From contig NZ_WTVS01000003.1 in the NCBI RefSeq assembly GCF_012911005.2, positions 1 through 64,000 of the forward strand: a DNA stretch of 64,000 nt, written 5' to 3'. The notes under the pieces were generated by a model that saw only the letters and a program-made list of their open reading frames with translations, was not told where the DNA came from and did no database searches. The position numbers and the translations under genes are program-made. This DNA is from Aromatoleum toluolicum (GTDB lineage Bacteria; Pseudomonadota; Gammaproteobacteria; Burkholderiales; Rhodocyclaceae). This document shows positions 1,047-33,890 of the stretch, piece after piece. The stretch's first letter is position 1. Every line of letters begins with the position of its first letter.

Positions 1047-5079
<4,033 letters not shown>

Positions 5080-5137
5080 AGCGAGGTTCCGACCGCAAGG
5101 CCCGTCGCGGCGCGTACGGGCCGGGTCTTCCCCCTTT

Positions 5138-5785
5138 TTAGCCTCTGGTCGCGAGTCCTGCCGTAACGGCGTCGCTCGCCGGCAGCTCGCGCACGCTGCG
5201 GCAGTCGGTCGCGCGGATCTGCTGCAGCATGTAGTCGGCGGTCAGGCCGGGCAGCATCGCGCGCAGGTAGCGCGCCAGGTTGAGCATCTGGCGATTGTCG
5301 AGTTCGGTCTCGCAGCTCGCGCGGCCGAAGTCCTCGTCGGGCGGGATCTGCGTGAAGCCGAGCCGCGCGCTGGGGGCGATCTCGCGTTGGGTCCCTGCGG
5401 AAAACACCAGCAGGCACGGGGTGCGGCAGGTGCTGCCGGCGGCGATGCGGGTGTCGAAGCCGCGGTTGCGCAGCATCGAGCCGACCGTGATCGCGGCGCC
5501 GACGCTGCCATCGCCGAGATCGAGGACCACGGTCTTGCCCCTGCACGAACGCTTCGCGAGCGCGTCGCTCGCCAGTCTCAGCGCGGATACGGCGGCTGGC
5601 GTCAGCGTGCCGCGCAGCGCGAGTTCGCAGTCCGCGCCACGTTGCGTGGCCGCCACGTCGCCGCCCTGGTAGGGGAAATGTTCCGCCTTGGCGTCGCGTT
5701 CGACGGTCGGGGCGACGCCACAGGCGGCGACGACCAGGCCGGTCGCGACTGAGGCAAGGAGATGCCAGGGGAAGCGGATGCGCAT
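5138..5785 (-). CDS. Putative lipoprotein with ClpP/crotonase-like fold (COG3904-type)
   Basis: The 215-residue protein starts at ATG 5783-5785 behind AGGAGAG. It has a lipoprotein signal (MRIRFPWHLLASVATG, lipobox VVAAC), so it is expected to be anchored in the envelope. The middle part (DLGDGSVGAAITVGSMLRN, then STCRTPCLLVFSAGTQRE and SARLGF) follows the pattern of predicted periplasmic ClpP-like proteins: a GG-type loop, a Cys-rich turn where a serine nucleophile often sits, and a LGF strand. A clear Ser-His-Asp triad is not evident, so peptidase activity is doubtful. It is 58 bases from the next gene on the same strand. An in-frame extension upstream to 5881 lacks a signal peptide and was rejected. 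Confidence 0.7.
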   Translation of the reverse strand: MRIRFPWHLLASVATGLVVAACGVAPTVERDAKAEHFPYQGGDVAATQRGADCELALRGTLTPAAVSALRLASDALAKRSCRGKTVVLDLGDGSVGAAITVGSMLRNRGFDTRIAAGSTCRTPCLLVFSAGTQREIAPSARLGFTQIPPDEDFGRASCETELDNRQMLNLARYLRAMLPGLTADYMLQQIRATDCRSVRELPASDAVTAGLATRG

Positions 5786-5949
5786 GGGTCTCTCTCCTGA
5801 TGGTCTGCGGCAAACCGCACGGTGGCCTGCGGCTGGATTCGCGGCCGATATTAGCGCAGCGCGAACGTCCGCTCTCCGCAACTTACTAAAATATCATGGC
5901 AGGGGCGCCCGCCCGGAACGGTGCGGCGCATGATCGGGAGGGTAGCGGA

Positions 5950-6375
5950 ATGGCGTGGAGCACCTTCGAGCACGAAGCCGACGTCGGCGTGTGCGGTACG
6001 GGCGATACGCTCGCCGAGGCCTTCGCCGGTGCGGCGACGGCGATGACCGCGGTGATCTGCGATCCGGCCGCCGTCGCGCCGCGCGATCCGGTCGGCATCG
6101 CCTGCGCGGCGCCCGATCGCGAGCTCCTGCTGGTCGATTGGCTCAGCGCGCTGGTGTTCAACATGGCCACACGCCACATGCTGTTCTCGCGCTTCGAGCT
6201 GACAGTCGAGTCGGATGCGGGCGGTTGCCGCCTCGCAGCGACGGCCTGGGGCGAGCCGGTGGAGGTCGCCCGCCACCAGCCGGCGGCCGAGGTGAAGGGG
6301 GCATCCTTCTGCGAACTGCGGGTCGAGCGCGGTACCGACGGCGTCTGGATCGCACAGTGTGTGGTCGATGTGTGA
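5950..6375 (+). CDS. Archease (RtcB activator)
   Basis: The 141-residue protein belongs to the archease family, which helps the RNA ligase RtcB form its guanylylated intermediate and turn over. Typical features are the start WSTFEHEADVGV, the Asp/Glu-containing AFAGAATAMTAVICDP helix, the ELLLVDWLSALVF segment, and the KGASFCELRVE strand near the end. The start ATG 5950 has GGGAGG upstream and matches the family N-terminus; an earlier ATG at 5896 adds unrelated residues. rtcB follows 196 bases downstream on the same strand. The pair is probably co-transcribed, which supports both calls. Confidence 0.9.
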   Translation: MAWSTFEHEADVGVCGTGDTLAEAFAGAATAMTAVICDPAAVAPRDPVGIACAAPDRELLLVDWLSALVFNMATRHMLFSRFELTVESDAGGCRLAATAWGEPVEVARHQPAAEVKGASFCELRVERGTDGVWIAQCVVDV

Positions 6376-16083: not shown

Positions 16084-19000
16084 TCATGGATTCTTCTTGA
16101 TGCGTTTGGAATTTCTGGCGCGCGCTGGCGGCGGCAGTCCGGGGCAGTCCTGCTGGCCGAGGCTGCGCGCGAGTTCGCCCAGAACGCGGGCGCGCATCGT
16201 ATCGCCGGGGTGGCCGCGCAGGGCGGCCAGACGCGCGAGCAGGCAGATCTGCTTCACGACGGAGTCGAACTTGCGCGCGCTGCGCGGCACGTTGTCGATC
16301 GCCTGCTCGTAGAGGCTGGCGAGCTTCGGGCCGTCGTCGGCGCCGATTCCCGCAAGGAGCCGTGCGGCGAGTTCGGCGTCGGCCGGTTTCACCGCGTCGA
16401 AGAAGTCGCCGCTGCGCGCGAACAGTGCGCGCGCCGCCTCGGCGCACATGGCCGCCTGTTCGGTCGCGCGCTTGCGCGCGGCGGCGTCGTCGGCTTCGAG
16501 GAGCAGCCAGTCGAGCTGCAGGCGGTTGATCATGAGGTAGGGATCGAAGCCCGCATCGCCCGGCGTGCCCTCGGCGCCGGCGTACGCCTCGCGTGCGCGC
16601 GCCAGAGCCGCGCGCACGCGAGGCCAGTCGCCGTTGTGCGCGGCGAGCACGGCCGCCTCGCGCTTGAGGGCGCTGCCGAGCAGGGCGCTGCGTTCGGCGT
16701 TCGACGGCATGGGGGTCGTGCCGGGCGGCATCGGCTGCGCCAGCGCGATGAGGCTGTCGAGGCGTGCGATGGCGGATTCGATCAGGGTCGTATCGCCCCG
16801 CGTCTCGCCCATGCGGGCTTCGAGGTTGGCGAGCTGTTCGATGATGCGTACGGGCACGCGTCCGCTGCGGTCTTCGCCGGCGAGCGCGAGGCAATAGGCG
16901 GTGCAGGCGCGTTCGAAGCCTTCGCTGCCGAGTTCGGCATAGGTTGCGCCGATGGCAGCCTGCACTTCGGGCAGATCCTTCCACGCGGCCGGGACCTGCG
17001 CGAGGATGGCGGCGATATGGCGCCCCACGTCGGCGACGCTGCGCGCGCGGTGCGACAAGTCGACGCGCAGGCGTGCGAAGGTGTCGACGAGGTCGACGGG
17101 CGAGACGATGTTGGTGGGAACCCGTGCCGTGCCTTCGTCGGCAGGGGCTTCCAGCATGTAGTGCGGATCGCCGTAGGCCTGGTAGGCGCCCCAGGTGTTG
17201 TACTGGGGATATTCCTCCCATGCGCTCTTGCGGGCGGCGAACACGGCCTGGCCGAAGGGTTTCCCGTCGCGCACGAAGCTCTCGAAGAAGCTCGTCGCGA
17301 AGAGGCGGGCGGCCTCGTCATTCACCTGCCAGCCGGCCGCGACGACGCAGCGCACGCCGATCTCGATCAGCTCGCATGCGATGCTGTAGGCGAGGCGGTT
17401 CGCCGTGTCGGGGGCCGCCGTCATCGCGCCGAGGTGGCAGCAGTTGAGGAACACGAGTTCGGGCACGACTTCGAGCTGCGATACCTCGGCGGCGGTGAGC
17501 AGCATGCCGTCGGACAGGACGACGCCGGTGCGCTGCGTGCCGTCGCGCGCCGTGGCCTCGAACACGCCGTGGGCGGCGACGACGAGCACCTTGCACGGCT
17601 GGCGGAAGAGACGCGCGAACACGTCGAGCGCCTCGATGCCTTCGCCATAGCTGACGTCGTAGCCGCACTCGCCGAGCAGGTCGCGGATCGCCGCGCCTTC
17701 GGTAGCCGCGCCGGGCAGATCGGCCAGATGGTCGTCCGGCGGCGCGGGCAGCGTTCGCGCAGGATTGCCGAACTGGGCGTAATAGCCGTGGGTGGACGGG
17801 TTGGCGATCACGCATGCGACCTTGCGCGTGATGCTGAGCGGGTTGCGGCGGAAACGGGCGGAGGCGAACTGGCGAACGATCGCCGTGTTGAGCGCCATCG
17901 GCTGCTCGTCGGCCTGCAGCATCTCCCACGGCAGGTTCGCGGTGTAGCTGTCGACGACGAGGACGAGTTGTTCGGCCTCGCGCGCGGCCGCCTTGAAATC
18001 CAGCGGCACCATCAGCTGGAACAGTGTGCGCGACAGGTCGGCGTTGTAATGGTCCTGGGTGATCGCGTTGCGAACCAGCGCTTCGACGAGTCCGGGCTGG
18101 CGCTGGTGCAGGACGCTTTCGGCACGCGCGCGTTCGGACAGGAAGACGAATTTCAGCCGTGCGGCGATCGCACGGCTGCCGCCCGTCGGGGCCGGCACAG
18201 TGCCGTCCGCGGGGCCGTCGTCCGCGGTGACGAGCATGCGCGGCCAGTAGCCGAAGGGGGCGAACACCGACAGGCGCGGGCGGGCGCCTTGGCCCTCGTT
18301 GAGCTGCTCGGCGACTTCGATGCGCGCCTCCAGGCGGCGCAGGTCGCCGGCCATGCGCGCGGGCAGCTGGCGCACCGCGCGCGCCGCACTGATCGCGGTG
18401 TCCATGAACAATTCGATCAGTTCCAGGCGCGCGACCCGCAGCCGGGTAAGCGGCATCGCCTCGGCGAACTGGCGGTTGGCGGCGAGCACGCCGCGCACGA
18501 TGGATTCGATGGAGTCGTCGACGCTGATGTGGGCAGTGGAGTTGTAGCCGATCAGCAGGCTCGCGAGCGTGAGCTCGTTTTCGCCCTCGTCCTCGGCACC
18601 CCCGCCCTCGCTGCCCTGGCGGTCGTGGGAATGGAGCAGGTAGCGCAGGACGCCGGCACGCACGGTCTCGGTGATATCGGCGGCGGACAGCTGACCGAAT
18701 CGCCCCAGGCCGACGATCACGGCGCCGCGCCCGGTGCCGCGCAGGCGGTCTTCCCTGTTGCGCGCCTGCAGCACGATGGCCGCCGAGCCGATTTCGCCTG
18801 CATAGACGCCGAGCCGTTCGCGCTGGCGCAGGGCGCCGTCGACCAGTGCGTCGTTGATCGCGGCCTCGGCGCCGGCGATCCCGTCGCCCTGGTAGTGGCC
18901 GCACAAGATGGGCTGGCGCGCGAAGCGCAGGTCCATCGCGCTGACCGAGACCTGCAGCGGATGGATCGCCGACACCGGGCGGCGGCGGCGCGGACGGGTG

Positions 19001-21888
19001 CCGACGAGGCTGCAGGCGAGTTCCTCCTCGGTTGGCAGTACGGGCGGCGGGGCGTCGTAGCTGGCGATCGGGGCAGCGGCGGCGCGCGTGGCGGGCAGGC
19101 GGCCGAGGCGGCTCGTGGTGCCGGTCTGCAGCAGGTCCGCGACGGCGGGGAAGTATTCCTCGGTGCTGGTCAGCGCGCCGTGGTCGACCGGCATGTACCA
19201 GTGCTGCTCGGCCGGCAGGTTCGCGAGTCGCCCGGATGCCCAGCTCACCGACCCGTCGCCCTGCGGGGTGCCGATCATCTTGATCTGGTCGCCTTCGAGC
19301 GCGGTGCCGCAGGGGGTGTTCTCGGCCTGGCCGAAGACGTAGGTCACGCGTTCGAGCGGCTGCGGCGCGTCGTTGGTCGCGAGCGGCCCCTCCCACAGGC
19401 TGCGGGCGGCCGTGAGCGTGGCATTGCTGGGTTGTCCGGCGATGCCGTCGCCGAACCAGCGGTCGCGGTTGGCCTTGGCGGCGGACGGCCACACGGGCGC
19501 GCGCAGCCAGTCGGCGTGCAGCGTCGGCCCGGCGTCGTCGAAACCGGGGCGTGGCAGCAGCTGCATCGCACCGGGGAAGCCCGCGACGATGTCGAGCACG
19601 CCCTGCATGCCGTGGCCAAGGTCCATGCGCGCGAGTTGGCGCATCGTGCCGGACTTGCCGAGCAGGGTCTCGACCATGAGGTGCGAGCCGTTGTTGGGCG
19701 TGCCCAGCATCACCAGGCGGCCACCGGGGCGGCGCACGAGCTCCGCCCACAGCTCGGGGTGGGTCGCGATCATCGTGCGGCACACGAGGCCGCCCATGCT
19801 GTGCGCGAGCAGGCGCACGGGCTGGTTGGGGTGCGTCTTGAGCGCCTTCTGAAGGGTGTCGGCGAGGCGTTCGGCTGCGCCATCCGGCGCGTGGATCGGC
19901 TTGCGCCAGTCGTAGGGGAAGCGGATGACGGTGTGCGTCGCTTCGAGATGCTCGGCGAGGTCGCCGTAGAACATGTCGAAGAGGGTTTCCTCGCGCACGT
20001 CGGCTCGGTCCATCGCCACCTTCGCGAGGCCGCCGGTCGCGAGGTCGAGGAAGTCGAACCACACGCGGTCGCCGTCGCCCGCCTTGCGTTCTTCCTTGCG
20101 CACCTCGAGGTGCGACCCCATGATGCCCGGCAGGAAGATCACGACCGGGCGGCTGTCCGGGCGCGGCGTTTCGCGCAGGGCCGCGCGGCTGGCGGCGCGA
20201 TCGCGCGCCTCGGCGGCGCCGGGTTCGCGGCGGCGGGCGATGGCGCTGAACGTGGGCAGGGCCGCCGGGTCGTTGCTCGTGAGCCAGTCGCGCAGCGCGC
20301 TGCGGGTGTGGCGGTTGGCGAAGTAGCTGAAGTGATTGACCGAGGCGCCCTGGTCGAAGAGGTAGCGCGCCTCGTTGCGCATCGCGAGGCCGGCGTACAT
20401 CGAGTCGGTGTCGACCACCAGGTCGTTGTCGCGATTGTCGAACAGCATCCAGTCGGTGAACATCACCCCGAGGCGCTTGAGCACGCTGGTTTCCTGGATG
20501 TCGCCGGAGATGACGGCCATCGCGATGCCCTGCTTGCGCTGCGCGGTCGCGAGCAGCGAGCCCATCGGCGCGTCGGTGAGCATCGCCTCGATGCCGGGAA
20601 CGAGCCGCGCATCGACGCGCTTGTCGGCGATTTCCAGCACGATGCGCCTGAACGCCGACAGCACCGCGCCGCCGGCCGGGCCGGTCACGGCGCCGACGAG
20701 GCGGGCGGTCAGGCTCAGCAGCCCGGAAAGGAACAGGTCGAGGTTGTCCGAGAGCAGCGTCGTGCCGCGCGCGGGGCTGGCGACGCGCACGTAGCGTTCG
20801 ATGCGGAAGTTCTTGTCCGCGAGCTCCTGGCGCAGCGCGCGCAGCGTGTCCTGCTCGCGCGCGGTGACGAGGTCGCGCAGGCGTTTTTCGCGCTCGGATT
20901 CGTCCGTGTTGGGCGGCGGGGCGTGGCGGTAGGCGGCGATGGCGTCGTCGCTCAGGCCCGCGAGGCACAGCAGGTCGCCGACGAGACCGCCGCGCGAATG
21001 CGTGACGACGGACAACCGGGCGCCGGCGGGCAGCGTGCGGGCGAGCTGCAGCGCGTTGTCGATCGGGCTTTCCGAGAAGGTGCGGTGTTCGAAGCCGAAG
21101 ATGCGCTCGCCGAAGCGGCGTGCGAGCGGTTCCCAGTCGGCGGCGGCGCTGCCGGCGCGCAGATCCTTGAAGCTCCCGAGCGTGTGCGAGGCGGTGCCGT
21201 GGATGAAGAGCAGCGTCGGCGCGTCGCCGATCGCAGCGAGGCGCGGGTCGTTGGCGGTGCAGCGGTCGGCGCCCGCGAGGCCGTCGCCGTCGCGCCACTG
21301 GTAGAGCCCCGGTTCACCCGCGAGGCGGCTTTCGATCGCCCACATCAGCGCCTTGGTCCCCAGCCATGACGCACCGGGCGCGGCGAGATCCTCGCTGCGC
21401 TCGCCAAGCCACTCCTGCAGCCATTCAAGCGCCTTGTCGCGCGCGGCGTCGGCGATCGCGTCGTGCCCCAGCGTAAGGACCGATACGCCCGACCACAGCC
21501 AGTCCGGAATGCCGCGCGCGGCCGCGGCCGGGTCGTGCAGGGCGACGAAGTCGATCGAGCCGTCGGCGCGCACGGCGTCGGGGCGTACCCGCGCGAGGTC
21601 TTCCCTGAGCTTGTCGGCGCGGATGAAGACGGTGGTGCCGTCGCCCGTCTCCAGCGCGAGCAGGCTGTCTTCGCGCATGTGCGCGTCGGTCGTGGCAGTC
21701 GCGTCGCGTCCGGGCGCGGTCAGGGCATAAGCCGCCTTCACCGCGACGACACCGTCGAGGAAGGGATCGGGCGCCGCAGCGTCGGTCGCGCGCGTGCCGG
21801 TCTTCAGCGCGGCGGGCAGGGTGTCGGCCTCGCGCCGCATCCCCGGCAGGTGGAAGACGAGTTCACTCGGTTTGCGCGGTGCCGGCAT
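16084..21888 (-). CDS. Giant protein: two alpha/beta-hydrolase domains plus CHAT protease domain
   Basis: The protein has 1934 residues. Residues about 190-560 form a first alpha/beta-hydrolase: LFIHGTASHTLGSF at about 228 and a nucleophile elbow THSRGGLVG with Ser298. Residues about 580-900 form a second, LCAT/lipase-like hydrolase: VIFLPGIMGSHLE at about 588 and AHSMGGLVCRT with Ser697. After a mixed linker region, residues about 1300-1590 form a CHAT (caspase-clan) domain with VVAAHGVFE (His1440) and FLNCCHLGAM (Cys1484 by alignment with the usual ACxTG). The rest is helical and TPR-like. There is no signal peptide, so it is probably cytoplasmic. A metacaspase gene lies 61 bases upstream. 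A protease-controlled lipase or esterase effector is a reasonable reading, but substrates are unknown. The frame is intact over 5.8 kb. Confidence 0.85.
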   Translation of the reverse strand: MPAPRKPSELVFHLPGMRREADTLPAALKTGTRATDAAAPDPFLDGVVAVKAAYALTAPGRDATATTDAHMREDSLLALETGDGTTVFIRADKLREDLARVRPDAVRADGSIDFVALHDPAAAARGIPDWLWSGVSVLTLGHDAIADAARDKALEWLQEWLGERSEDLAAPGASWLGTKALMWAIESRLAGEPGLYQWRDGDGLAGADRCTANDPRLAAIGDAPTLLFIHGTASHTLGSFKDLRAGSAAADWEPLARRFGERIFGFEHRTFSESPIDNALQLARTLPAGARLSVVTHSRGGLVGDLLCLAGLSDDAIAAYRHAPPPNTDESEREKRLRDLVTAREQDTLRALRQELADKNFRIERYVRVASPARGTTLLSDNLDLFLSGLLSLTARLVGAVTGPAGGAVLSAFRRIVLEIADKRVDARLVPGIEAMLTDAPMGSLLATAQRKQGIAMAVISGDIQETSVLKRLGVMFTDWMLFDNRDNDLVVDTDSMYAGLAMRNEARYLFDQGASVNHFSYFANRHTRSALRDWLTSNDPAALPTFSAIARRREPGAAEARDRAASRAALRETPRPDSRPVVIFLPGIMGSHLEVRKEERKAGDGDRVWFDFLDLATGGLAKVAMDRADVREETLFDMFYGDLAEHLEATHTVIRFPYDWRKPIHAPDGAAERLADTLQKALKTHPNQPVRLLAHSMGGLVCRTMIATHPELWAELVRRPGGRLVMLGTPNNGSHLMVETLLGKSGTMRQLARMDLGHGMQGVLDIVAGFPGAMQLLPRPGFDDAGPTLHADWLRAPVWPSAAKANRDRWFGDGIAGQPSNATLTAARSLWEGPLATNDAPQPLERVTYVFGQAENTPCGTALEGDQIKMIGTPQGDGSVSWASGRLANLPAEQHWYMPVDHGALTSTEEYFPAVADLLQTGTTSRLGRLPATRAAAAPIASYDAPPPVLPTEEELACSLVGTRPRRRRPVSAIHPLQVSVSAMDLRFARQPILCGHYQGDGIAGAEAAINDALVDGALRQRERLGVYAGEIGSAAIVLQARNREDRLRGTGRGAVIVGLGRFGQLSAADITETVRAGVLRYLLHSHDRQGSEGGGAEDEGENELTLASLLIGYNSTAHISVDDSIESIVRGVLAANRQFAEAMPLTRLRVARLELIELFMDTAISAARAVRQLPARMAGDLRRLEARIEVAEQLNEGQGARPRLSVFAPFGYWPRMLVTADDGPADGTVPAPTGGSRAIAARLKFVFLSERARAESVLHQRQPGLVEALVRNAITQDHYNADLSRTLFQLMVPLDFKAAAREAEQLVLVVDSYTANLPWEMLQADEQPMALNTAIVRQFASARFRRNPLSITRKVACVIANPSTHGYYAQFGNPARTLPAPPDDHLADLPGAATEGAAIRDLLGECGYDVSYGEGIEALDVFARLFRQPCKVLVVAAHGVFEATARDGTQRTGVVLSDGMLLTAAEVSQLEVVPELVFLNCCHLGAMTAAPDTANRLAYSIACELIEIGVRCVVAAGWQVNDEAARLFATSFFESFVRDGKPFGQAVFAARKSAWEEYPQYNTWGAYQAYGDPHYMLEAPADEGTARVPTNIVSPVDLVDTFARLRVDLSHRARSVADVGRHIAAILAQVPAAWKDLPEVQAAIGATYAELGSEGFERACTAYCLALAGEDRSGRVPVRIIEQLANLEARMGETRGDTTLIESAIARLDSLIALAQPMPPGTTPMPSNAERSALLGSALKREAAVLAAHNGDWPRVRAALARAREAYAGAEGTPGDAGFDPYLMINRLQLDWLLLEADDAAARKRATEQAAMCAEAARALFARSGDFFDAVKPADAELAARLLAGIGADDGPKLASLYEQAIDNVPRSARKFDSVVKQICLLARLAALRGHPGDTMRARVLGELARSLGQQDCPGLPPPARARNSKRIKKNP

Positions 21889-21949
21889 CCGGGCCTCCTG
21901 CTGCGGTGGGGAAGGGGCGCGCCGGCGCTTCAGGGCCGGCGCGCGGGCG

Positions 21950-22744
21950 TCACGCGAAGACCTTGAAGCGGCGTGCGGTGCGGGTGCCGAAGATCTGCGG
22001 ATCCTGCGGCAGGCGCGTGGAGGGCAGGTAGTTGCGGATTTCCTTGAACCAGTGCTCGTAGGTCGCCGTCGCGGGCAGGTTCTTCAGCGTCTTCAGCGCA
22101 TAGAAGGTGAAGGCGCCGTTGGGGCGGCCGTTGAAACTCGTGTCCCAGCTGAACTGCGTGTCGAGGCAACCCGCGAGCAGCAGGTCGCCGCCGGCGCGCG
22201 TGAAGCCGCCGGACAGCCGCGCCGGGCGCACGGTGTCCGTGGGCAGGGCGTCGCGCTTCATCCATACCGCCGGCGGCAGGAAGCGTGCGCGCGGCATGCC
22301 GGGGTCGAGATCGCTTTCGTCGCCGCGCGTGACGGTGCCGGAGTGGCAGCTGTCGGAGATGAGCATGATGCGCACGCCGCCGGCACGCTTGCTGAAGAGG
22401 TCGTGCAGCTCGTCGTCGAGCAGCGCATTGCCGCTGCCGATGTCCCACGGGCACAAGGCTTCGTCGCGGGCGTCGGGCTCGTCGCCGTCGGTGTCGGGCA
22501 GCCAGGTGCCGTGGCCGGAATAGGTGAGCACGATCGTGTCGCCCTTCGCCGCGCCCGTGACGAGGGTGTCGATGGCCTGCACCATCGCCGCCTTGGTCGC
22601 CGCGGAATCGAGCAGGCGGGTCACCGAGAAGCCGCGTTCGGTGAGGGCGGCGGCCCAGTCGCTGGCGTCATTGACGCAGCCGGAGAGGTCGCTGTCGGTG
22701 CCGGGGTAGTTGTTGATGCCGATGCAGAGCGCGCGTCTTGCCAT
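21950..22744 (-). CDS. Metacaspase (caspase family, peptidase C14)
   Basis: The 264-residue protein is a caspase-fold cysteine protease. It has the family N-terminus RALCIGINNYPGTDSDLSGC followed by NDASDWAAAL, the catalytic histidine in TYSGHGTW (His78) and the catalytic cysteine in ISDSCHSGT (Cys133). Acidic calcium-loop-like residues lie between (DTDGDEPDARDEAL). Such enzymes cut after Arg or Lys. It has no prodomain, signal or TPRs, so it needs partners for control. ATG 22742-22744 with GGAG upstream was chosen; the extension to 22891 lacks family similarity. It precedes the CHAT/hydrolase gene by 61 bases on the same strand and probably shares its mRNA. A sigma-70-like promoter lies 166 bases upstream. 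Confidence 0.93.
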   Translation of the reverse strand: MARRALCIGINNYPGTDSDLSGCVNDASDWAAALTERGFSVTRLLDSAATKAAMVQAIDTLVTGAAKGDTIVLTYSGHGTWLPDTDGDEPDARDEALCPWDIGSGNALLDDELHDLFSKRAGGVRIMLISDSCHSGTVTRGDESDLDPGMPRARFLPPAVWMKRDALPTDTVRPARLSGGFTRAGGDLLLAGCLDTQFSWDTSFNGRPNGAFTFYALKTLKNLPATATYEHWFKEIRNYLPSTRLPQDPQIFGTRTARRFKVFA

Positions 22745-22909
22745 GAGATTCTCCTTCGGGTCCGGAGCATCCCCGCCTCCCGCGGCGGCCCCGTGCCCGC
22801 CGCATGTCGGTGCGATGCGGGCGGAATCGGGCGCAACCTTGCTGTCGGGGCATGCGGGCTGCCGCTCCCGGGACGGGGCGGTGCCGCGCACTTATTCTGT
22901 TTAATTATC

Positions 22910-22938
22910 TGTGTAGAGGTCGCTCCCTTCTTTGTCAA
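22910..22938 (-). promoter_or_regulatory. Sigma-70-like promoter of the metacaspase-CHAT operon
   Basis: On the minus strand TTGACA (22933-22938) and TACACA (22910-22915) are separated by 17 bases, in an AT-rich pocket. The -35 box overlaps the stop codon of the upstream chitosanase-like gene. This suggests that the metacaspase and CHAT genes can be transcribed apart from it. The -10 box is weak. Confidence 0.5.
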
Positions 22939-23885
22939 ACCGTCAGGTCGTCGAACGAGCACAGCCGTGCGACTTGCGCGATGTCGGCGACGCCGGTGGC
23001 GGGAAGGCCGTTCTTCGCCTGCCAGGCCTTGATGCAGCGCGCGCTGGTCTGGCCGAAGAGGCCGTCGGCCTTGATGTCGACGCCGCGCAGCGACAGCCCG
23101 AGCTGGATGCGGCGCACGTCGAGCCCGCGCATGATCGGCGAGCCGACCGCCAGCGGACGCGATCCCGGCGCCGGGCCGTCGAAGCAGCCGTGGGGCAGGG
23201 CGGCCAGCGTCGCGGGCGAGATCTCGGCGTTGCGTACGACCAGCGGCAGCTCGAGGTTCCAGTAGTCCTGGTCGATCAGGCGCTGGAAGGCATCCATGCG
23301 ATACACCGTCGGGCGCAAGTCCGCGCGCGCGTGGCCGGCGAGCCAGGCGCGCCGCGTCGCCACGTAGGCGTCGATCCATTTCCGTTCGCCCGCGTCGGCC
23401 ACGCTGCCGTGCGCGGCGTTGCAACGGTCTCGCATCGCCTTCCATGCGCCGTGCACGAAGCTGTCATACACGACGGCGCAGCCCAGCGGCGAGGCGATGC
23501 CCTCGCGGGCGGCCGCGCGCATCGCCGGCTGCCAGTAGTTCGCGTCGAAGAAGGCGTCCTGCACGTCGCGCATCACCGCGTCGTCGGCGCCCGCGCGCAG
23601 GATGTTGTGCAGGGCGCCGTCCTTGTCCAGTGCGAGGTCGACGGCGTCGAAGCGCGGCAGGTAGCGGTCGAGCAGCGGTGCGAATTCGGCGCCGGGCGTG
23701 GTGCAATACTGGCGCAGCAGCTTCGCGAGGTTGCCCGAGCCGAGCGTCGTCTGCGAGCGCCCGTAGGTGAGGTGGCCGGTGTCGCCGCGGATGATCGTGA
23801 CCATGCCGTAGTCGCCCAGCACCTGGCCGGTCTCGAAAAGATTGACGATGCTCTCGGCGGTCTTCTTCTGCGTGGCTGTCAGCAT
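22935..23885 (-). CDS. GH46 chitosanase-like protein with C-terminal peptidoglycan-binding domain
   Basis: The 316-residue protein starts with AESIVNLFETGQVLGDYGMV and RGDTGHLTYGRSQTTLGSGN, the region carrying the catalytic Glu and Asp in GH46 chitosanases and their relatives. Residues about 240-310 are a PG_binding_1-type repeat (RIQLGLSLRGVDIKADGLFG, AIKAWQ-like SARCIKAWQAKNGLP). It would cleave a glycan such as peptidoglycan or chitosan, but no signal peptide is visible, so it must act inside the cell or leave by another route or after lysis. ATG 23883-23885 follows AGGAGT. It lies directly upstream of the metacaspase on the same strand, with a 190-base gap. Confidence 0.8.
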   Translation of the reverse strand: MLTATQKKTAESIVNLFETGQVLGDYGMVTIIRGDTGHLTYGRSQTTLGSGNLAKLLRQYCTTPGAEFAPLLDRYLPRFDAVDLALDKDGALHNILRAGADDAVMRDVQDAFFDANYWQPAMRAAAREGIASPLGCAVVYDSFVHGAWKAMRDRCNAAHGSVADAGERKWIDAYVATRRAWLAGHARADLRPTVYRMDAFQRLIDQDYWNLELPLVVRNAEISPATLAALPHGCFDGPAPGSRPLAVGSPIMRGLDVRRIQLGLSLRGVDIKADGLFGQTSARCIKAWQAKNGLPATGVADIAQVARLCSFDDLTV

Positions 23886-23938: not shown

Positions 23939-26900
23939 TCAGCCGCCGGGGCCGCTCCGTTCGTCGAAACAATCGATCAGCGCGATCACCAGGTCGCGCG
24001 ATGCCGTGCGGAACTTCAGGCCGGCGAGCGAGCGCCGCGCCGAGGCCTGATAGCCATGGTTATAGTCGGCGACGATCTGCCCCGCCAGCCTGTGGAAGTC
24101 CTTGTGCATGCGCGTAAGGTGCGCGAGGCGGTCGGCGGGCAGGGCCTCGTTGCCGTCGATCCATTGGCCCAGCTCGCACAGGCTCACCGAGCCGGCTTCG
24201 GCCTCGTCCAGCGCTTCGGCGTTGGATCGCCCGCTGATGTAGGCGTTGAGCCGCTTGCGCCAGTTGAGGTGGGCCTCGATGGCCCGCTTCAGGTCGAGCC
24301 CGTGCCGCCTCCAGCCTTCGCGTTCCATGAACGCGGCCAGAGCGGGCGAGCGTTCGCCGAGCAGCCGGCGCAGCCAGCCATCGACGTCGAGGTCGTCGCG
24401 GCGCAGCGCGGTGAGCAGGCGCGACTCTTCCGGGCCGAGATCGTCGACCGAGGCCAGCAGGAAGTGCTTCTGCAGCATCGCTTCGAACTCCTCGGGCGGC
24501 AGTGGCCTGCCGATGAGGTAGCCCTGCAGGAAGTCGCAGCCGAGTTCGCGCAGGAAGCTCACCTGCTCCGCGGTCTCGACGCCTTCCGCGGTGACGTGCA
24601 GCCCGAGGCTGTGGGCCATGTTGATGATGGCCTCGACGAGATGCGCGTCGTTGCGGTCGTCCGGGCAGTCGTTGATGAAGCTGCGGTCGATCTTGACGAT
24701 GTCGACGGGGAAGCGCTTGAGGTAGGACAGCGACGAGAAGCCGGTGCCGAAGTCGTCGAGCGCGTAGCCGATGCCCAGCGCCTTGATGTCGCGCATCCGT
24801 GCTTCCATCGATTCGCTGCCGCCCATCAGCACCGATTCGGTGATCTCGACCATGAGGCTGCCGCGGTCCATGCCGAATTCGGCGAGCACGCTGGCGACCA
24901 GGTCGGGTAGTCCGGCTTCGCGGAACTGCACGCCGGACATGTTCACCGCCAGTCGCAGCGTCCCGTGTCCCTGCTCGCGCCAGGCCCGGGACTGGCGCGC
25001 CGCCTCGCGCAGCGCCCATTCGCCGATGCCGATGATGAGGCCGCTGTCCTCGGCCACGGGGATGAACTCCAGCGGTGACACCGGCCCCCGTTCGGGGTGG
25101 AGCCAGCGTATCAGCGCCTCGGCGCCGACTAGCTCGCCGCTGTCGGCATCGACGATGGGCTGGTAGTGCAGCGAGAAGGCCTGCTGTTCGAGCGCGGTGC
25201 GCAGGTCCGCCTCGAGCTTCAGGCGCGCGAGGGCGTCGCTCTGCATGTCGCGGGCGTAGAACTGGAAGCGGTTCTTGCCGGCCTGCTTGGACTTGTACAT
25301 CGCGATGTCGGCGTTGCGGAACAGCGTCTGCACGTCCTCGCCGTCGTCCGGGTAGACGGTGATGCCGACGCTGCCCGACATGCGGTGCTGCATGCCGCAC
25401 AGCGAGAACGGATCGCGCAGCACGCTGACGATCTTCTCGGCGATCGCGTTCAGGTCGTCGGGCGCGGCGAGGTCGTGTACCACGATCGTGAACTCGTCGC
25501 CGCCGAAGCGTGACACGGTATCCTGCTCGCGCACGCAGAAGGTCAGGCGGCGCGCGACCTCGACCAGCAGTTCGTCGCCGGTGTCGTGCCCCAGCGTGTC
25601 GTTGATCCACTTGAAGCCGTCCAGGTCGAGGAACAGCAGGCCGACGTGGGTGCGGTTGCGCCGCGCATGCGTCATCGCCTGGTCGAGGCGGTCCTGCAGC
25701 AGGCTGCGGTTGGCCAGGCCGGTCAGCAGGTCGAAGTTGGCCTGGCGCCAGATGGCCTCCTCCTGCTGCTTGCGGTGGGTGATGTCGTTGAACAGCGAGA
25801 TGTAGCCGGTGACCACGCCGCGGTCATCGTAAATGGCCGAGATCGTCTGCCACTGCGGGTAGATCTCGCCGCTCTTGCGCCTGTTCCAGATCTCGGATTC
25901 CCAGCGCCCCGTTTCGGCCAGCGATTTCCACATGCTGGCGTAATACGCCGCGTCGTGGCGCCCGGAAGCGAGCAGCGAAGGTTTGCGTCCGAGCACCTCC
26001 TCGGCAGCGTACCCGGTGATCGCGGTGAACGCCGGATTGACGGCCGTGATCACGCCATTCGCGTCGGCGGTCATGATGCCCTGGCTCGACGCGTTGAACA
26101 CCACCATCGCCTGCTTCATGCGGGTCTCGATGCGCTTGCGCTCGGTGATGTCCTGCATGCTCAGCTGCAGCAGTGTGCGGTCGCCGTGGCGGAAGCTCAT
26201 GCAGCGGATCTCGGCGTCCCACTCCGCGCCGTCCGGGCGACGATTGCGCCATTCGAACATGCTCACACGCGCGTCCAGGCAGCGCGAGAGCTGTTCGTTG
26301 CCGGCCTCGCCCGACGGACGTCCGTCCGGCTGCACCGGCGCAGCCAGGTCGAGCGGCGTGCGGCCGATCATGCTCTGCCGGTCCGGGTAGCCGCACAGGG
26401 CCGCCGCCGCGTCGTTGCAGTCGATGAAGCGGCGCGTGCCCGGGTCGAGGATCGCCTGGGCGATGTGCGAATGCTCGAACAGGGTCTTGTTGTACGACTC
26501 GCTGTCGACCAGCGCCTGCATCGCCTCCTTCGCCGCCGAAACGTCGTTCATCACGCCGACGAACTGCTGCGGCTCGCCGCCGGCGGCGAGGATGGGCGCG
26601 ACGCGCAGGTCGCTCCAGTACAGCTCGCCGCTCTTGCGGCGGTTGATGAGCTCGCCCTGCCAGCTCTCGCCCCGCAGGATCACGCTCCACAGGTCCTCAT
26701 ACAGCTCGCGCGGCGTCTTGCCGGAGCGGAACAGAGCCGGCGTTCGCCCGATGGCCTCGCGCGCAGGGTAGCCGGTGATGCGCGAGAACGCCGGGTTCGC
26801 GTATTCGATCGCGGCGGAGCGGTCGGTGATGATGATGCCCGACGTGCTCGCATCGACCGCCACCTTGAACAGGCGCAGACTGTGCGCGGCGCGGCGGCGC

Positions 26901-27982
26901 TGTTCCAGCAGCACGCCGGCCAGCACGATCAGCAGCATCGCGATGATCTCGACGTGCATGTGCAGCAGCGTCGTCCAGCCCAGCGCGGAGCGGTCGACCA
27001 CGTGATAGATGGTCCAGGGCGCGTTATTCAGGCGCACGCCCGCCAGCAGCCAGCCGTCGTGCTTGCTGTAACCGGCCGTCGCGACGTCGACGAACTGCGG
27101 AAGGTGGCCGGAGAGCTCGCGTGGCAGCGTGCGGTCGACGAGGCGCACTTCCGAATCGTCCGCTTTCACGATTCCCGGATCGGCAATCAGCTGGCCCTGC
27201 TCGTTGGCGACGAACATGCGGCCGATCTCCATGCCGGGGCCGGCAAGGTAGCCGTTCAGGGTCGCAAGCGTGATGTCGAGCGCGATGATGGCGCGGAAGC
27301 GGCCCGCTTCATCGTATATCGGCGCCGTCACCGAACTCATCATGCCCTTGCCCGCTTCGTCGACGTAGGCCTCGCTCCACTGCAGCGCGCGATCGGGGTT
27401 GTTTTCCGGCGCGGCGCGCGCGACGATCGGGTGGGTGAGCATCTCGTCGCGCCAGCTCAGGTACTTCCACTGCGCATCGAGCGGATAGATGCTGACGAAG
27501 CCCGAGCGCGACGTGTAATACACCCAGGCTGCCTGCGGAACGTTCTCGCGCACGCGCTGGAACACCGGGATCAGGTGCAGCGCGACCTCGATCTCGCGTT
27601 CCATCTGTGCGGGAAAGGTCGCGGGATCGCCGCGGCCGAAGACGTATGCGCCGAGGCCGGGCGTCAGATCTTCCGGGACGCGCGTCGTCGCGAACAGGCC
27701 GGGTTCGGGGAACACCGTGAACGCGTCGCGCAGCGGGCTGCGCGCATAGACGACCTCGTCACGCAGTTCACGTTCCGCCTCGACGCGCAGGATCGCGACG
27801 TGGTCGGTCGCGGATTTCGCCGTGGCATCGAGCCCACTGCTCATTGCCTGCAGGCTCTCGCCGGAAAGGCGCAGCGCCGCGGCCACGCGGAAGGACCACA
27901 ACTCGTAGAAGCCGAAGCCCGCGAGCCCGATCACTGCGGCGTACGCGATGAGCACGACCCGGTTGAGCTGCGGAGCTTTCAC
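23939..27982 (-). CDS. Membrane Cache-PAS-GGDEF-EAL protein with C-terminal CZB zinc-sensor domain
   Basis: The 1347-residue protein is predicted to make or break cyclic-di-GMP at the inner membrane. It has a transmembrane segment at 8-28, a periplasmic double-Cache sensor (about 30-340), a second transmembrane segment at about 345-365, three PAS domains (about 370-745), GGDEF with SRFGGDEFTIVV at about 826, and EAL with GAEALIRWLHPERG at about 955. It ends with a chemoreceptor zinc-binding domain at about 1225-1320 (HLNWRKRLNAYI, CELGQWIDG, MHKDFHRL, giving the 3His-1Cys set). The start is GTG 27980-27982 behind AGGTGG. Full GGDEF and EAL signatures suggest both activities are possible. CZB at the C-terminus suggests control by zinc or oxidants. 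Confidence 0.9.
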   Translation of the reverse strand: MKAPQLNRVVLIAYAAVIGLAGFGFYELWSFRVAAALRLSGESLQAMSSGLDATAKSATDHVAILRVEAERELRDEVVYARSPLRDAFTVFPEPGLFATTRVPEDLTPGLGAYVFGRGDPATFPAQMEREIEVALHLIPVFQRVRENVPQAAWVYYTSRSGFVSIYPLDAQWKYLSWRDEMLTHPIVARAAPENNPDRALQWSEAYVDEAGKGMMSSVTAPIYDEAGRFRAIIALDITLATLNGYLAGPGMEIGRMFVANEQGQLIADPGIVKADDSEVRLVDRTLPRELSGHLPQFVDVATAGYSKHDGWLLAGVRLNNAPWTIYHVVDRSALGWTTLLHMHVEIIAMLLIVLAGVLLEQRRRAAHSLRLFKVAVDASTSGIIITDRSAAIEYANPAFSRITGYPAREAIGRTPALFRSGKTPRELYEDLWSVILRGESWQGELINRRKSGELYWSDLRVAPILAAGGEPQQFVGVMNDVSAAKEAMQALVDSESYNKTLFEHSHIAQAILDPGTRRFIDCNDAAAALCGYPDRQSMIGRTPLDLAAPVQPDGRPSGEAGNEQLSRCLDARVSMFEWRNRRPDGAEWDAEIRCMSFRHGDRTLLQLSMQDITERKRIETRMKQAMVVFNASSQGIMTADANGVITAVNPAFTAITGYAAEEVLGRKPSLLASGRHDAAYYASMWKSLAETGRWESEIWNRRKSGEIYPQWQTISAIYDDRGVVTGYISLFNDITHRKQQEEAIWRQANFDLLTGLANRSLLQDRLDQAMTHARRNRTHVGLLFLDLDGFKWINDTLGHDTGDELLVEVARRLTFCVREQDTVSRFGGDEFTIVVHDLAAPDDLNAIAEKIVSVLRDPFSLCGMQHRMSGSVGITVYPDDGEDVQTLFRNADIAMYKSKQAGKNRFQFYARDMQSDALARLKLEADLRTALEQQAFSLHYQPIVDADSGELVGAEALIRWLHPERGPVSPLEFIPVAEDSGLIIGIGEWALREAARQSRAWREQGHGTLRLAVNMSGVQFREAGLPDLVASVLAEFGMDRGSLMVEITESVLMGGSESMEARMRDIKALGIGYALDDFGTGFSSLSYLKRFPVDIVKIDRSFINDCPDDRNDAHLVEAIINMAHSLGLHVTAEGVETAEQVSFLRELGCDFLQGYLIGRPLPPEEFEAMLQKHFLLASVDDLGPEESRLLTALRRDDLDVDGWLRRLLGERSPALAAFMEREGWRRHGLDLKRAIEAHLNWRKRLNAYISGRSNAEALDEAEAGSVSLCELGQWIDGNEALPADRLAHLTRMHKDFHRLAGQIVADYNHGYQASARRSLAGLKFRTASRDLVIALIDCFDERSGPGG

Positions 27983-31685: not shown

Positions 31686-33890
31686 CTAACTGGATAAAGC
31701 CGCCACGTTGGCGCGCGCGACGTGCAGTTTCTTGTAGCTGTCGATCAGGCGCTGGTGCCTGTCGAGCCCTTCCAGTTTCATGCTCGTTGGCGTCAAGCCG
31801 AAGAAGCGCACGCTGCCGTCCACCGACCCCATCACCGCATCCATCCGCGGGTTGCCAAACATCCGGCGGAAATTGGCCTCGTAATCGTCCAGGTCCAGCT
31901 CGTCGTCCAGCAGCACCTCCAGCACCACATTCAAGGCCTGATAAAACAATCCGCGCTCGACCGTGTTTTCGTTGTATTGCAGGTAGGCCTCCACCTGCTC
32001 CTTCGCCGCTTCAAATTGCTTCAGGGCAAGATGAATCAGCAGCTTCAGTTCCAGGATCGTGAGCTGCCCCCAGACCGTATTCTCGTCAAACTCGATACCG
32101 ATCAAGGTGATGATGTCGGTGTAATCATCAAGCTCACTGTGTTCCAGGCGTTCGAGCAGCGCTTCCAGGCTGGCATCATCCAGGCGATGCAGGTTCAGGA
32201 TATCGGCGCGGAACAACAGCGCCTTGTTGGTGTTGTCCCAGATCAGGTCTTCCACCGGATAGATTTCCGAATAACCCGGCACCAGGATGCGGCAGGCCGT
32301 TGCGCCGAGTTGGTCATGCACCGCCATATACACTTCCTTGCCCATGTCTTCGAGAATGCCGAACAAGGCTGCGGCTTCCTCGGCATTGGAGTTTTCACCC
32401 CGGCCGGAGAAATCCCACTCGACAAAATCGAAATCGGCTTTGGCGCTGAAAAAGCGCCATGACACCACGCCGCTGGAATCGATGAAGTGTTCGACGAAGT
32501 TATTCGGCTCGGTTACGGCGTTGCTTTCAAAGGTGGGGCGGGGCAAGTCGTTAAGGCCTTCAAAACTGCGCCCCTGCAGCAACTCGGTCAGACTGCGTTC
32601 CAGCGCCACCTCCAGGCTGGGGTGCGCCCCGAACGATGCAAACACACCGCCGGTGCGCGGGTTCATCAAGGTGACGCACATCACCGGAAACTCCCCGCCC
32701 AGCGACGCGTCCTTCACCAGCACCGGAAAGCCCTGCTTTTCCAGTTCCTCGATGCCGGCCAGAATGCCGGGATATTTCGCCAGCACGTCGTGCGGCACAT
32801 CGGGCAGCGCGAGTTCGCCTTCCAGAATTTCACGCTTGACCGCCCGCTCGAAGATTTCCGACAGGCATTGCACCTGCGCTTCAGCCAGCGTATTGCCGGC
32901 ACTCATGCCATTGCTGAGAAACAGGTTGTCGATCAGGTTGGTCGGGAAATACACCACCTCGCCGTCCGACTGGCGCACATACGGCAGCGAACAGATGCCG
33001 CGCTGCACATTGCCGGAGTTGGTGTCGTACAAATGCGATCCACGCAACTCGCCATCGGGGTTGTAGATCTGCAGGCAGTACTCGTCGAGAATTCCAGCCG
33101 GCAGCGCATCCTTGCGGCCCGGTTTAAACCAACGCTCGTTCGGGTAATGCACAAACGTCGCGTTGGCAATGTCTTCCCCCCAGAACTGGTCGTTGTAAAA
33201 ATGATTGCAATTCATGCGCTCGATAAATTCGCCCAACGCCGACGCCAGCGCGCTTTCCTTGGCGGCACCCTTGCCGTTGGTAAAACACATCGGCGAGTGC
33301 GCATCGCGGATATGCAGCGACCACACGTTGGGAACCAGATTGCGCCATGAAGCAATTTCAATCTTGATGCCCAGATCCGCCAAAACCCGCGACATATTGG
33401 CGATGGTTTTCTCCAGCGGCAGATCCTTTCCCGCAATATAGGTGCTTGCTTCTGAATCCGGATTCAGCGTCAGCAGGGCCTGAGCATCGGCATCCAGATT
33501 CTTCACCTCCTCGATCACAAACTCAGGCCCGGTTTGCACGACCTTCTTCACCGTGCAACGCTCGATGGAGCGCAAGATACCCTGACGGTCGGTGGCGGAG
33601 ATATCCTCCGGCAACTCGACCTGGATCTTGAAAATCTGCTTGTAGCGGTTTTCCGGGTCGACAATATTGTTCTGCGACAGGCGGATGTTATCGGTAGGAA
33701 TATTGCGGGTTTCGCAATACAACTTCACAAAGTAAGCCGCACACAAAGCCGACGAAGCCAGAAAGTAATCAAACGGGCCAGGCGCCGAGCCATCTCCCTT
33801 ATAGCGGATAGGCTGATCGGCCACCACCGTGAAGTCATCGAACTTGGCTTCAAGACGAAGCTTGTCGAGAAAATTGACCTTGATTTCCAT
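31686..33890 (-). CDS. ycaO: OsmC-YcaO fusion protein
   Basis: The 734-residue protein has an N-terminal OsmC-like domain (residues 1-140; PFDYFLASSALCAAYFV and the peroxidatic-type Cys in SIERCTVKK) followed by a full YcaO domain (about 150-734) with the ATP-binding patterns SALGEFIERMNCNHF, SNGMSAGNTLAEAQVQCLSEIFER and SFGAHPSLEVALERSLTELLQGR. E. coli YcaO lacks the OsmC part and is linked to RimO-dependent ribosomal protein S12 methylthiolation. The C-terminus is the long form with helical repeats. Base composition is clearly lower in GC than its neighbours, with AT-rich codons such as AAT, ATT and AAA, which suggests transfer from another lineage. It stands alone. Confidence 0.92.
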   Translation of the reverse strand: MEIKVNFLDKLRLEAKFDDFTVVADQPIRYKGDGSAPGPFDYFLASSALCAAYFVKLYCETRNIPTDNIRLSQNNIVDPENRYKQIFKIQVELPEDISATDRQGILRSIERCTVKKVVQTGPEFVIEEVKNLDADAQALLTLNPDSEASTYIAGKDLPLEKTIANMSRVLADLGIKIEIASWRNLVPNVWSLHIRDAHSPMCFTNGKGAAKESALASALGEFIERMNCNHFYNDQFWGEDIANATFVHYPNERWFKPGRKDALPAGILDEYCLQIYNPDGELRGSHLYDTNSGNVQRGICSLPYVRQSDGEVVYFPTNLIDNLFLSNGMSAGNTLAEAQVQCLSEIFERAVKREILEGELALPDVPHDVLAKYPGILAGIEELEKQGFPVLVKDASLGGEFPVMCVTLMNPRTGGVFASFGAHPSLEVALERSLTELLQGRSFEGLNDLPRPTFESNAVTEPNNFVEHFIDSSGVVSWRFFSAKADFDFVEWDFSGRGENSNAEEAAALFGILEDMGKEVYMAVHDQLGATACRILVPGYSEIYPVEDLIWDNTNKALLFRADILNLHRLDDASLEALLERLEHSELDDYTDIITLIGIEFDENTVWGQLTILELKLLIHLALKQFEAAKEQVEAYLQYNENTVERGLFYQALNVVLEVLLDDELDLDDYEANFRRMFGNPRMDAVMGSVDGSVRFFGLTPTSMKLEGLDRHQRLIDSYKKLHVARANVAALSS

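Follow-up and report, generated by a model that had tools for sequence, protein, structure and literature searches.

A 64,000-nucleotide stretch of the Aromatoleum toluolicum genome (contig NZ_WTVS01000003.1, positions 1 to 64,000; hereafter, the window) carries three adjacent minus-strand genes, P0001, P0002 and P0003, which encode a protein with two lipase-like domains and a CHAT protease, a metacaspase, and a glycoside hydrolase family 46 (GH46) enzyme. We consider it probable, if by a small measure, that these genes encode a cytoplasmic, protease-linked lytic cell-death (conflict) module. P0001 would be its core: the TPR-S/M17_N part would serve as sensor-regulator, the CHAT domain as the protease that becomes activated, and the two lipase-like domains would attack membrane lipids, with the lipid damage opening the inner membrane. 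The metacaspase would be an optional, repeatedly recruited protease partner, acting either as an activator or as a parallel killer, and the leaderless wall hydrolase would be an optional executioner that reaches murein only after the membrane has been opened. On attack or severe stress, the outcome would be self-killing by lysis rather than mere arrest, perhaps with a benefit against phage. In other lineages, TIR or STAND (NLR-like) partners may provide the upstream signal. The features of the locus, with their positions in the window and the evidence in brackets, are as follows.

16084..21888, minus strand: P0001, 1934 amino acids (aa), with a DUF7379 alpha/beta hydrolase (S298), an LCAT/PGAP1-like alpha/beta hydrolase (S697), an M17_N-like region, a CHAT protease (H1440/C1484) and a TPR-S helical C-terminus (Pfam, alignments).
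20281..21213, minus strand: DUF7379 alpha/beta-hydrolase region of P0001, aa ~226-536, limits approximate, with the candidate triad S298-D489-H519 (Pfam best stretch aa 226-308, invariant residues).
19099..20145, minus strand: LCAT/PGAP1-like alpha/beta-hydrolase region of P0001, aa ~582-930, with the candidate triad S697-D878-H903 (Pfam, weak PDB profile matches, invariant residues).
18559..18957, minus strand: M17_N-like region of P0001, aa ~978-1110, limits approximate, with an invariant GHY motif at aa 997-999 (homology to loci L077 and L078).
17167..18036, minus strand: CHAT caspase-like protease domain of P0001, aa 1285-1574 (Pfam PF12770, 8.4e-30; H1440/C1484 conserved).
16513..16908, minus strand: TPR-S domain of P0001, aa 1661-1792 (Pfam PF20308, 1.8e-8).
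21950..22744, minus strand: P0002, metacaspase (Peptidase_C14), 264 aa from an internal ATG; the open reading frame (ORF) reaches 22891 (Pfam; best PDB match GSU0716, 1.2e-38).
22935..23885, minus strand: P0003, GH46 glycosidase with PG_binding_1, 316 aa, ATG at 23885, without a hydrophobic N-terminus (Pfam, hydropathy scan).
23939..27982, minus strand: PAS-GGDEF-EAL-CZB membrane protein, a neighbour at genus level whose membership in the module is uncertain (Pfam, synteny).

The three ORFs that a preliminary description had placed on one strand are all open and present on the minus strand, and Pfam matches agree with the GH46/peptidoglycan-binding, metacaspase and double-lipase-like/CHAT domains that it had assigned; the PAS-GGDEF-EAL-CZB gene and the TPR-S and M17_N-like regions of P0001 had escaped it. 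Besides CHAT and TPR-S, P0001 matches DUF7379 (3.8e-33) and LCAT (1.5e-8) or PGAP1 (3e-7). Its CHAT match reaches 104.6 bits, against a Pfam cut-off of 24, with a conserved His/Cys dyad. S298, S697 and the CHAT residues H1440 and C1484, the latter two described earlier as intact, are invariant in a 12-row alignment of P0001 relatives, as are all residues of S298-D489-H519 and S697-D878-H903, the candidate catalytic triads of the two hydrolases. In a 53-row alignment, counting just the rows in which the domain is present and the site covered, the single active-site substitution is S697G in locus L053. In the alignment row L080 a trypsin domain stands in CHAT's place, and in Qingshengfaniella a trypsin takes that position behind the LCAT-like hydrolase. 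In PDB profile searches, the LCAT-like domain weakly resembles LCAT, group XV phospholipase A2 and a putative lipase (E 5.5e-4 to 0.012), a resemblance that suggests hydrolysis of phospholipid acyl bonds.

Between the second hydrolase and CHAT lies a region homologous to the N-terminal domain of M17 aminopeptidases, a domain of macro-like fold. The corresponding region matches Peptidase_M17_N significantly in L078 (6.3e-7) and weakly in L077 (0.0037), and P0001 itself has no Pfam match to that family. TPR-S, which belongs to a nucleotide-centred conflict network and whose Pfam name includes 'sensor', is found in all 12 members of alignment A1. Both the TPR-S and the M17_N region are candidate sensors.

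P0002 matches Peptidase_C14 at 1.9e-26 (93.6 bits; cut-off 21.4) and carries the SGHG and D-x-CHSG dyad motifs of metacaspases. Its His78/Cys133 dyad (numbered from the internal ATG), which the preliminary description had likewise called intact, is invariant among 13 aligned metacaspases. The protein very probably starts at the ATG at 22744, because strong similarity to the genus copies in L011 and L013 begins at about that point. P0003 matches Glyco_hydro_46 at 2.6e-17 (63.6 bits; cut-off 27) and PG_binding_1 at 8.1e-10. In its alignment with 7c6c, of the residues that we take to be catalytic, E47 stands opposite a Glu and D64 falls one column away from an Asp. The GH46 relatives with solved structures carry the name chitosanase; because of the peptidoglycan-binding domain and the wall-hydrolase families that replace GH46 at other loci (see below), P0003 would be expected to act on murein.

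By a crude hydropathy scan, the N-terminus is not hydrophobic in P0001, in the metacaspase or in any of 14 wall hydrolases (GH46 plus 13 others). Among the four genes of the locus, a strong hydrophobic segment occurs in the GGDEF protein alone, with a maximum 19-residue window of 2.22, compared to 1.59 (internal) in P0001 and less than 1.4 in the metacaspase and GH46. The four genes are under purifying selection (dN/dS of 0.05-0.26 in three comparisons), and their order is retained in seven relatives (L009, L010, L011, L013, L086, L087 and L088); the locus is therefore not a chance arrangement. The GGDEF gene ends 53 nt upstream of the GH46 start, and this synteny is kept within the genus. By best-segment identity, P0001 is 96 per cent identical to its counterpart in A. 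tolulyticum (L010) and 89-92 per cent identical to those in three further named Aromatoleum/Azoarcus records, so that by P0001 identity the host (6.16 Mb in 289 contigs) is Aromatoleum/Azoarcus-like and very close to these.

Outside the genus, we counted by hand 39 loci with P0001 relatives (L012, L014-L020 and L048-L078), some of which share a genus or genome, two of which hold incomplete copies and several of which lie at contig ends. A wall hydrolase lies within 250 nt of P0001 in 12 of the 39, and its family changes from locus to locus: Amidase_2 (L014, L019), the PF11860 muramidase with PG_binding (L020), M15_4 (L050, L051, L056, L058), M15_3 (L060, L061, L062) and GH108 with PG_binding_3 (L066, L077). 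The L019 amidase and the L058 M15_4 were typed through strong similarity to Pfam-typed neighbours rather than by their own Pfam scan, and the counts include the M15_4 of L050 and the M15_3 of L060. L064 additionally carries a PG_binding_1 and GH19 protein 3.2 kb from P0001. Counting GH19 (one locus) and GH46 (the window's genus, where it lies ~1.05 kb from P0001, behind the metacaspase), wall-degrading enzymes of seven Pfam families occur near P0001. In genome G525 (L057), the contig ends 81 nt past P0001, and the next-numbered contig opens with an M15_4 gene (L095).

A metacaspase adjoins P0001 or lies one gene away in 12 of the 39 loci (L012, L019, L050, L051, L052, L056, L057, L058, L060, L061, L062 and L065), and metacaspase and wall hydrolase are both present in eight (Fisher P = 0.002). 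The possibility, raised in the preliminary description, that the three families would not occur together elsewhere did not come true: they are linked in many genomes, in re-assorted combinations.

To set a base rate, we used 30 P0001-bearing genomes (127 Mb), in which the zone within 1.5 kb of P0001 makes up 0.21 per cent of the DNA. This zone holds 4 of 13 M15_4 hits, 3 of 16 M15_3 hits and 12 of 64 standalone caspase hits (70 less 6 inside CHAT). The corresponding binomial P-values are 1e-8, 5e-6 and ~3e-20 (the last computed with 65 hits), values that ignore shared descent and concern families picked after they had been seen in the zone. On a FastTree tree of 48 rows, which left out L080, L020, L070, L071 and L086 and carries a long-branch warning for L078, L072 and L019, the metacaspase changed state at least 8 times and the wall hydrolase at least 10 times (L012, L015 and L057 were unscored for wall hydrolase, and L015 for metacaspase). 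In 8 independent pairs differing in metacaspase, the wall hydrolase differed in the same direction in 5 and in the opposite direction in none (sign test, median P = 0.06).

The metacaspases do not follow their P0001 partners in identity. Specifically, the metacaspases of L061 and the window are 65 per cent identical, while their P0001 proteins are 34 per cent identical; the corresponding values are 70 and 36 per cent for L056 and L065, and 70 and 31 per cent for L050 and L060. The L061 metacaspase is nearer to that of the window than to those of L060 (55 per cent) and L062 (54 per cent), even though the L061 P0001 groups with those of L060 and L062. Because metacaspases are often far more alike than the P0001 proteins beside them, the family seems to have paired with different P0001 lineages more than once, a view built on pairwise identities and not on a metacaspase tree. 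The identities of the two proteins are correlated (Mantel r = 0.46, P = 0.003, n = 11), and cross-lineage pairs clearly break this correlation; we reject strict vertical pairing, that is, simple co-divergence.

Two further caspase arrangements were seen. In G407 and G437, whose P0001 has no adjacent metacaspase, a metacaspase 74 per cent identical to that of L065 stands elsewhere in a two-gene pair with a TIR gene. These pairs, unlinked to the P0001 of the same genomes, are located as follows.

L090:4187-6163: TIR and metacaspase two-gene pair.
L091:4001-6035: TIR and metacaspase two-gene pair.

On the opposite strand beside the P0001 operon of L050, positions 2679-6022 encode a 995-aa EACC1-associated-type caspase protein (NCBIfam 5e-31, under its cut-off) and an unclassified partner of 117 aa.

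P0001 is patchily distributed across the order and the phylum. With the window's own genome counted throughout, 25 of the 399 genomes drawn from the order have a relative, as do 6 of 185 from the class (single-sequence search, E 1e-30), 4 of 398 from the phylum and 13 of the 17 in the genus. Plasmid records with relatives come from Azotobacter, Ensifer, Paracoccus and Rhizobium (15 of 72,556 records match, several of them only across a short stretch). Taking the P0001 and caspase surveys of the order, which agree in size and share genome identifiers, as one draw of 399 genomes, we find a caspase in 23 of 25 genomes with P0001 and in 94 of the 374 others (P = 2e-11), an association that larger, more complex genomes may confound.

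Could these be ordinary proteins of envelope maintenance or stress, linked through co-regulated housekeeping turnover of lipid and wall? HSP20 and mechanosensitive-channel genes beside the locus would suit such a role, as would the ordinary neighbours of many P0001 copies; the other scanned neighbours in the window are carbonic anhydrase, TonB receptor, YcaO, LysR and 2-oxoacid-dehydrogenase-type genes. We regard this explanation as very unlikely in view of the missing hydrophobic N-termini, the presence of two caspase-clan proteases, the swapping of partner families, the TIR, STAND and restriction-modification neighbours described below, and the patchy distribution given above. As a separate observation, positions 31686-33890 of the window encode an OsmC-YcaO fusion protein (OsmC-like, YcaO and YcaO_C domains).

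The GGDEF-EAL neighbour raises another possibility, that the genes form a lysis-for-release module without a defence role, in which a producer cell bursts under cyclic di-GMP control to free phage-like particles, exopolymers or biofilm DNA. The neighbour is conserved in the genus, and some wall-hydrolase partners resemble endolysins: the GH108 of L066 matches 548 phage records, some annotated as endolysin or lysozyme, and the M15_4 of L050 matches 171. A GGDEF homologue also lies 2.5 kb from P0001 in L062, but it is the only one in the compared non-genus loci. P0001 matches none of 50,697 phage records and was confirmed in no viral contig, and the TIR, STAND, SLOG and restriction-modification neighbours suit conflict better. 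GH46 has no phage match, and we rejected it as a phage endolysin. On this evidence, release is unlikely to be the function.

Contractile-tail genes near two loci bear both on release and on a further explanation. In L060 (2229-4178) and L062 (1748-3697), a sheath gene (Pfam Phage_sheath in L060, identified by eye in L062) and tube-like genes lie on the opposite strand, upstream of the metacaspase/P0001/M15_3 operon; they could point to an injection system or to particle release. If the former, the lipase, protease and wall hydrolase could be cargo of a contractile injection or type VI system, exported against other cells. Lipases and wall hydrolases are classic type VI cargo, and L068 contains a gene that by eye looks Hcp-like. 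Against this, metacaspase, CHAT and TPR-S would be unusual cargo; the sheath genes occur at only two loci of one genus, the Pfam-scanned neighbours include no VgrG, PAAR or Rhs, and the gene lists, examined by eye, show no recurrent small immunity-like gene beside the wall hydrolases. We therefore find export quite unlikely.

Genes associated with conflict are found near P0001 in several relatives. TIR genes are adjacent or within ~2 kb in L018, L019, L049, L064, L066 and L077 and, by hit position, in L065, and in L019 and L065 the TIR and metacaspase genes stand in one gene run. nSTAND1 receptors occur near P0001 in L066, L074 and L077, a kinase near L019 has PD-T4-6 as its best PADLOC match, a SIR2 protein stands by the P0001 copy of Rhizobium GLR17, and the Azotobacter copy lies in a type I restriction neighbourhood with transposases. 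A SLOG-like family with an LFSGHMIDAP-type start is represented, at distances of up to 6 kb, in L014, L049 (where the match is weaker and the protein longer), L050, L051, L052, L059 and L077. Three of its members were scanned: that of L052 alone has a weak Pfam YAcAr/SLOG match, and those of L014 and L077 have no Pfam or NCBIfam match. The small members (190-215 aa, LFSGHMIDAPxRxxPRFP-type start) are the following.

L014:9248-9889: SLOG-like protein.
L050:2056-2682: SLOG-like protein.
L051:216-812: SLOG-like protein.
L052:15862-16437: SLOG-like protein.
L059:16529-17164: SLOG-like protein.
L077:16958-17542: SLOG-like protein.

In Paracoccus sp. TOH, a gene overlapping the P0001 start (L076:4339-7527) encodes a 1062-aa product that matches nothing in Pfam or NCBIfam and may serve as that lineage's sensor.

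The TIR neighbours recall type IV Thoeris, in which a TIR signal activates a caspase-like protease (Rousset et al. 2025, as reported in PMC12847820), and invite the explanation that P0001 is a TIR-signalled, Thoeris-like effector: its M17_N/TPR-S part would bind a TIR-made nucleotide and switch on CHAT, with the wall hydrolase and metacaspase as add-ons. TIR and caspase-like genes are indeed neighbours in several P0001 relatives, and the unlinked G407 and G437 metacaspases stand in TIR pairs. Type IV Thoeris is recognized by a TIR and a caspase-like gene in one operon, with a protease activated by N7-cADPR. By contrast, the 15 genes scanned at the window locus and around it include no TIR, all four TIR hits in its genome, G000, lie on other contigs, and the protease is fused to lipase-like domains. 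The M17_N assignment is also weak for P0001 itself. We judge this explanation rather unlikely.

Several observations weigh against the proposed lytic module. TIR hits are frequent in the P0001-bearing genomes (167 in 27 of 30), so that the nearness of TIR genes counts for less. No defence gene was found among the 15 genes scanned at or around the window locus, one of which has no Pfam match; this locus is kept in 13 of the 17 genus genomes. Nearness to genes characteristic of conflict systems (TIR, nSTAND and SLOG-like) holds at some relatives. PADLOC has no model for P0001 or P0003 and covers P0002 by a general caspase model only. GH46 may act on chitosan instead of murein. The M15_4 gene is on the opposite strand in L051, L056 and L058, and the metacaspase is downstream in L065; the linkage is therefore not always that of one operon. 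Two AlphaFold models are poor (mean pLDDT 49 and 48), and their sole long confident stretch is the C-terminal helical repeat of P0001 (aa ~1597-1917).

Moreover, in 18 of the 39 non-genus loci (L015-L017, L048, L053-L055, L063, L067-L073, L075, L076 and L078), the flanks covered, judged by a reference set and the scanned genes, contain no metacaspase, wall hydrolase, TIR, STAND or SLOG-like gene. L015 and others of these lie at contig ends, L070 and L071 are incomplete, L073 is beside restriction-modification genes and L078 is beside SIR2 genes. Within the genus, too, P0001 can stand without its partners. In G944 (L081), 142 nt separate the GGDEF gene from P0001, and the GH46/metacaspase pair is absent in between; in G937, G938, G940 and G946 (L082-L085), P0001 is in another neighbourhood without GH46 or metacaspase, 67-69 per cent identical over the aligned part and with active sites intact. 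Close homologues (E 1e-10) of GH46 and the metacaspase are found in exactly the same 8 of 17 genus genomes, always beside P0001. From this pattern of presence and absence, GH46 and the metacaspase look like a single accessory unit, and P0001 persists in their absence.

The retention of P0001 without this pair in L081-L085 is the strongest evidence against an obligatory two-protease cascade. Metacaspase-cleavable linkers were likewise rejected: Arg/Lys-rich linkers do not track a metacaspase neighbour, either between the hydrolases or before M17_N/CHAT (P = 0.30 and 0.66; 11 versus 23 loci, leaving out 13 near-duplicates and the six rows without both linkers, L020, L070, L071, L077, L078 and L080). 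The earlier suggestion that one protease activates the other or frees the hydrolases is thus not supported, in view of the linker comparison and of the intact P0001 proteins that lack a metacaspase and wall hydrolase in L081-L085. The wider interpretation is partly supported, by the family linkage, the conflict-type neighbours and the caspase/hydrolase theme.

Because a pairing of caspase and alpha/beta-hydrolase has been reported in VMAP systems (PMC7159879), the module proposed here belongs to an already known kind. In VMAP systems, a caspase domain is invariably accompanied by an alpha/beta-hydrolase gene next to it, trypsin and caspase can replace each other, and murein enzymes of the lysozyme and papain types are EAD1-linked effectors of the related System 3 (Kaur et al. 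2020, PMC7159879). The pairing is common to our locus and to the VMAP ternary (MoxR-vWA)/GAP1-N1 conflict systems. In contrast to VMAP systems, two hydrolases and CHAT are here fused with TPR-S, and the metacaspase and leaderless wall hydrolase are separate genes. No MoxR, vWA, VMAP or GTPase core was found among the 15 genes scanned with Pfam, a search that did not extend to the remainder of the genome.

Among the experimentally tested systems that we found in the literature, the Canu caspase-nuclease system (PMC12799240) comes closest in pairing a caspase with a hydrolytic effector. It has a separate caspase gene by a hydrolytic effector, repeated protease-effector pairing, and TPRs in some loci. 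Canu involves proenzyme activation and a gated MBL-fold nuclease, whereas the effectors here are lipase-like domains and wall hydrolases. No MBL-fold pro-nuclease stands beside the caspase; its neighbours are GH46, the DUF7379/LCAT/CHAT protein and the GGDEF-EAL protein.

In the TPR-CHAT protein (Csx29) of Craspase, CHAT is joined to TPRs, and in caspase-gasdermin systems, a protease is coupled to membrane damage. P0001 resembles the first in joining CHAT to TPRs and the second in tying a protease to membrane damage; it differs from both in that the attack on the membrane would be enzymatic, with an attack on the wall added. The scanned neighbours of the window locus include neither Cas7-11 nor any other Cas protein, a search that did not extend to CRISPR arrays or the remaining genome, and no gasdermin gene is next to the protease, where the scanned neighbours have other Pfam identities. 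In phage holin-endolysin cassettes, the membrane is opened and a leaderless wall hydrolase then passes through, which in outline is the order of events proposed here. In contrast to such cassettes, P0001 and GH46 have no phage match; no holin was seen, with no separate holin search made, and protease and candidate sensor domains are present instead.

We recognized no description of a combination in which a fused double-hydrolase/CHAT/TPR-S core is joined by a leaderless wall hydrolase that can be exchanged and by a metacaspase that re-pairs, a weak negative confined to openly licensed papers. As far as we found, this combination is undescribed, and the caspase/hydrolase theme is already known. 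More tentatively, and with less confidence than we place in the module itself, the locus may represent a widespread, modular, pyroptosis-like death: a core that combines sensor, protease and lipase would breach the inner membrane from inside the cell, an endolysin-like leaderless wall hydrolase from varied families would complete lysis, and metacaspase, TIR and STAND would be interchangeable initiators. If so, it would be, to our knowledge, the first cell-death system to place the cell's own murein hydrolase, as a dedicated but exchangeable executioner, under a caspase-type switch.

Of the caspase-linked immune effectors studied in bacteria, most cut proteins, DNA or membranes. If the lytic reading of this module is true, some bacteria would programme complete lysis through caspase-linked lipase-like domains and an exchangeable wall hydrolase. 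The costs and benefits for neighbouring cells would then differ, as DNA, enzymes and particles would be released. The metacaspase, a family whose roles in bacteria are poorly known, gains a recurrent set of partners that is open to direct testing.

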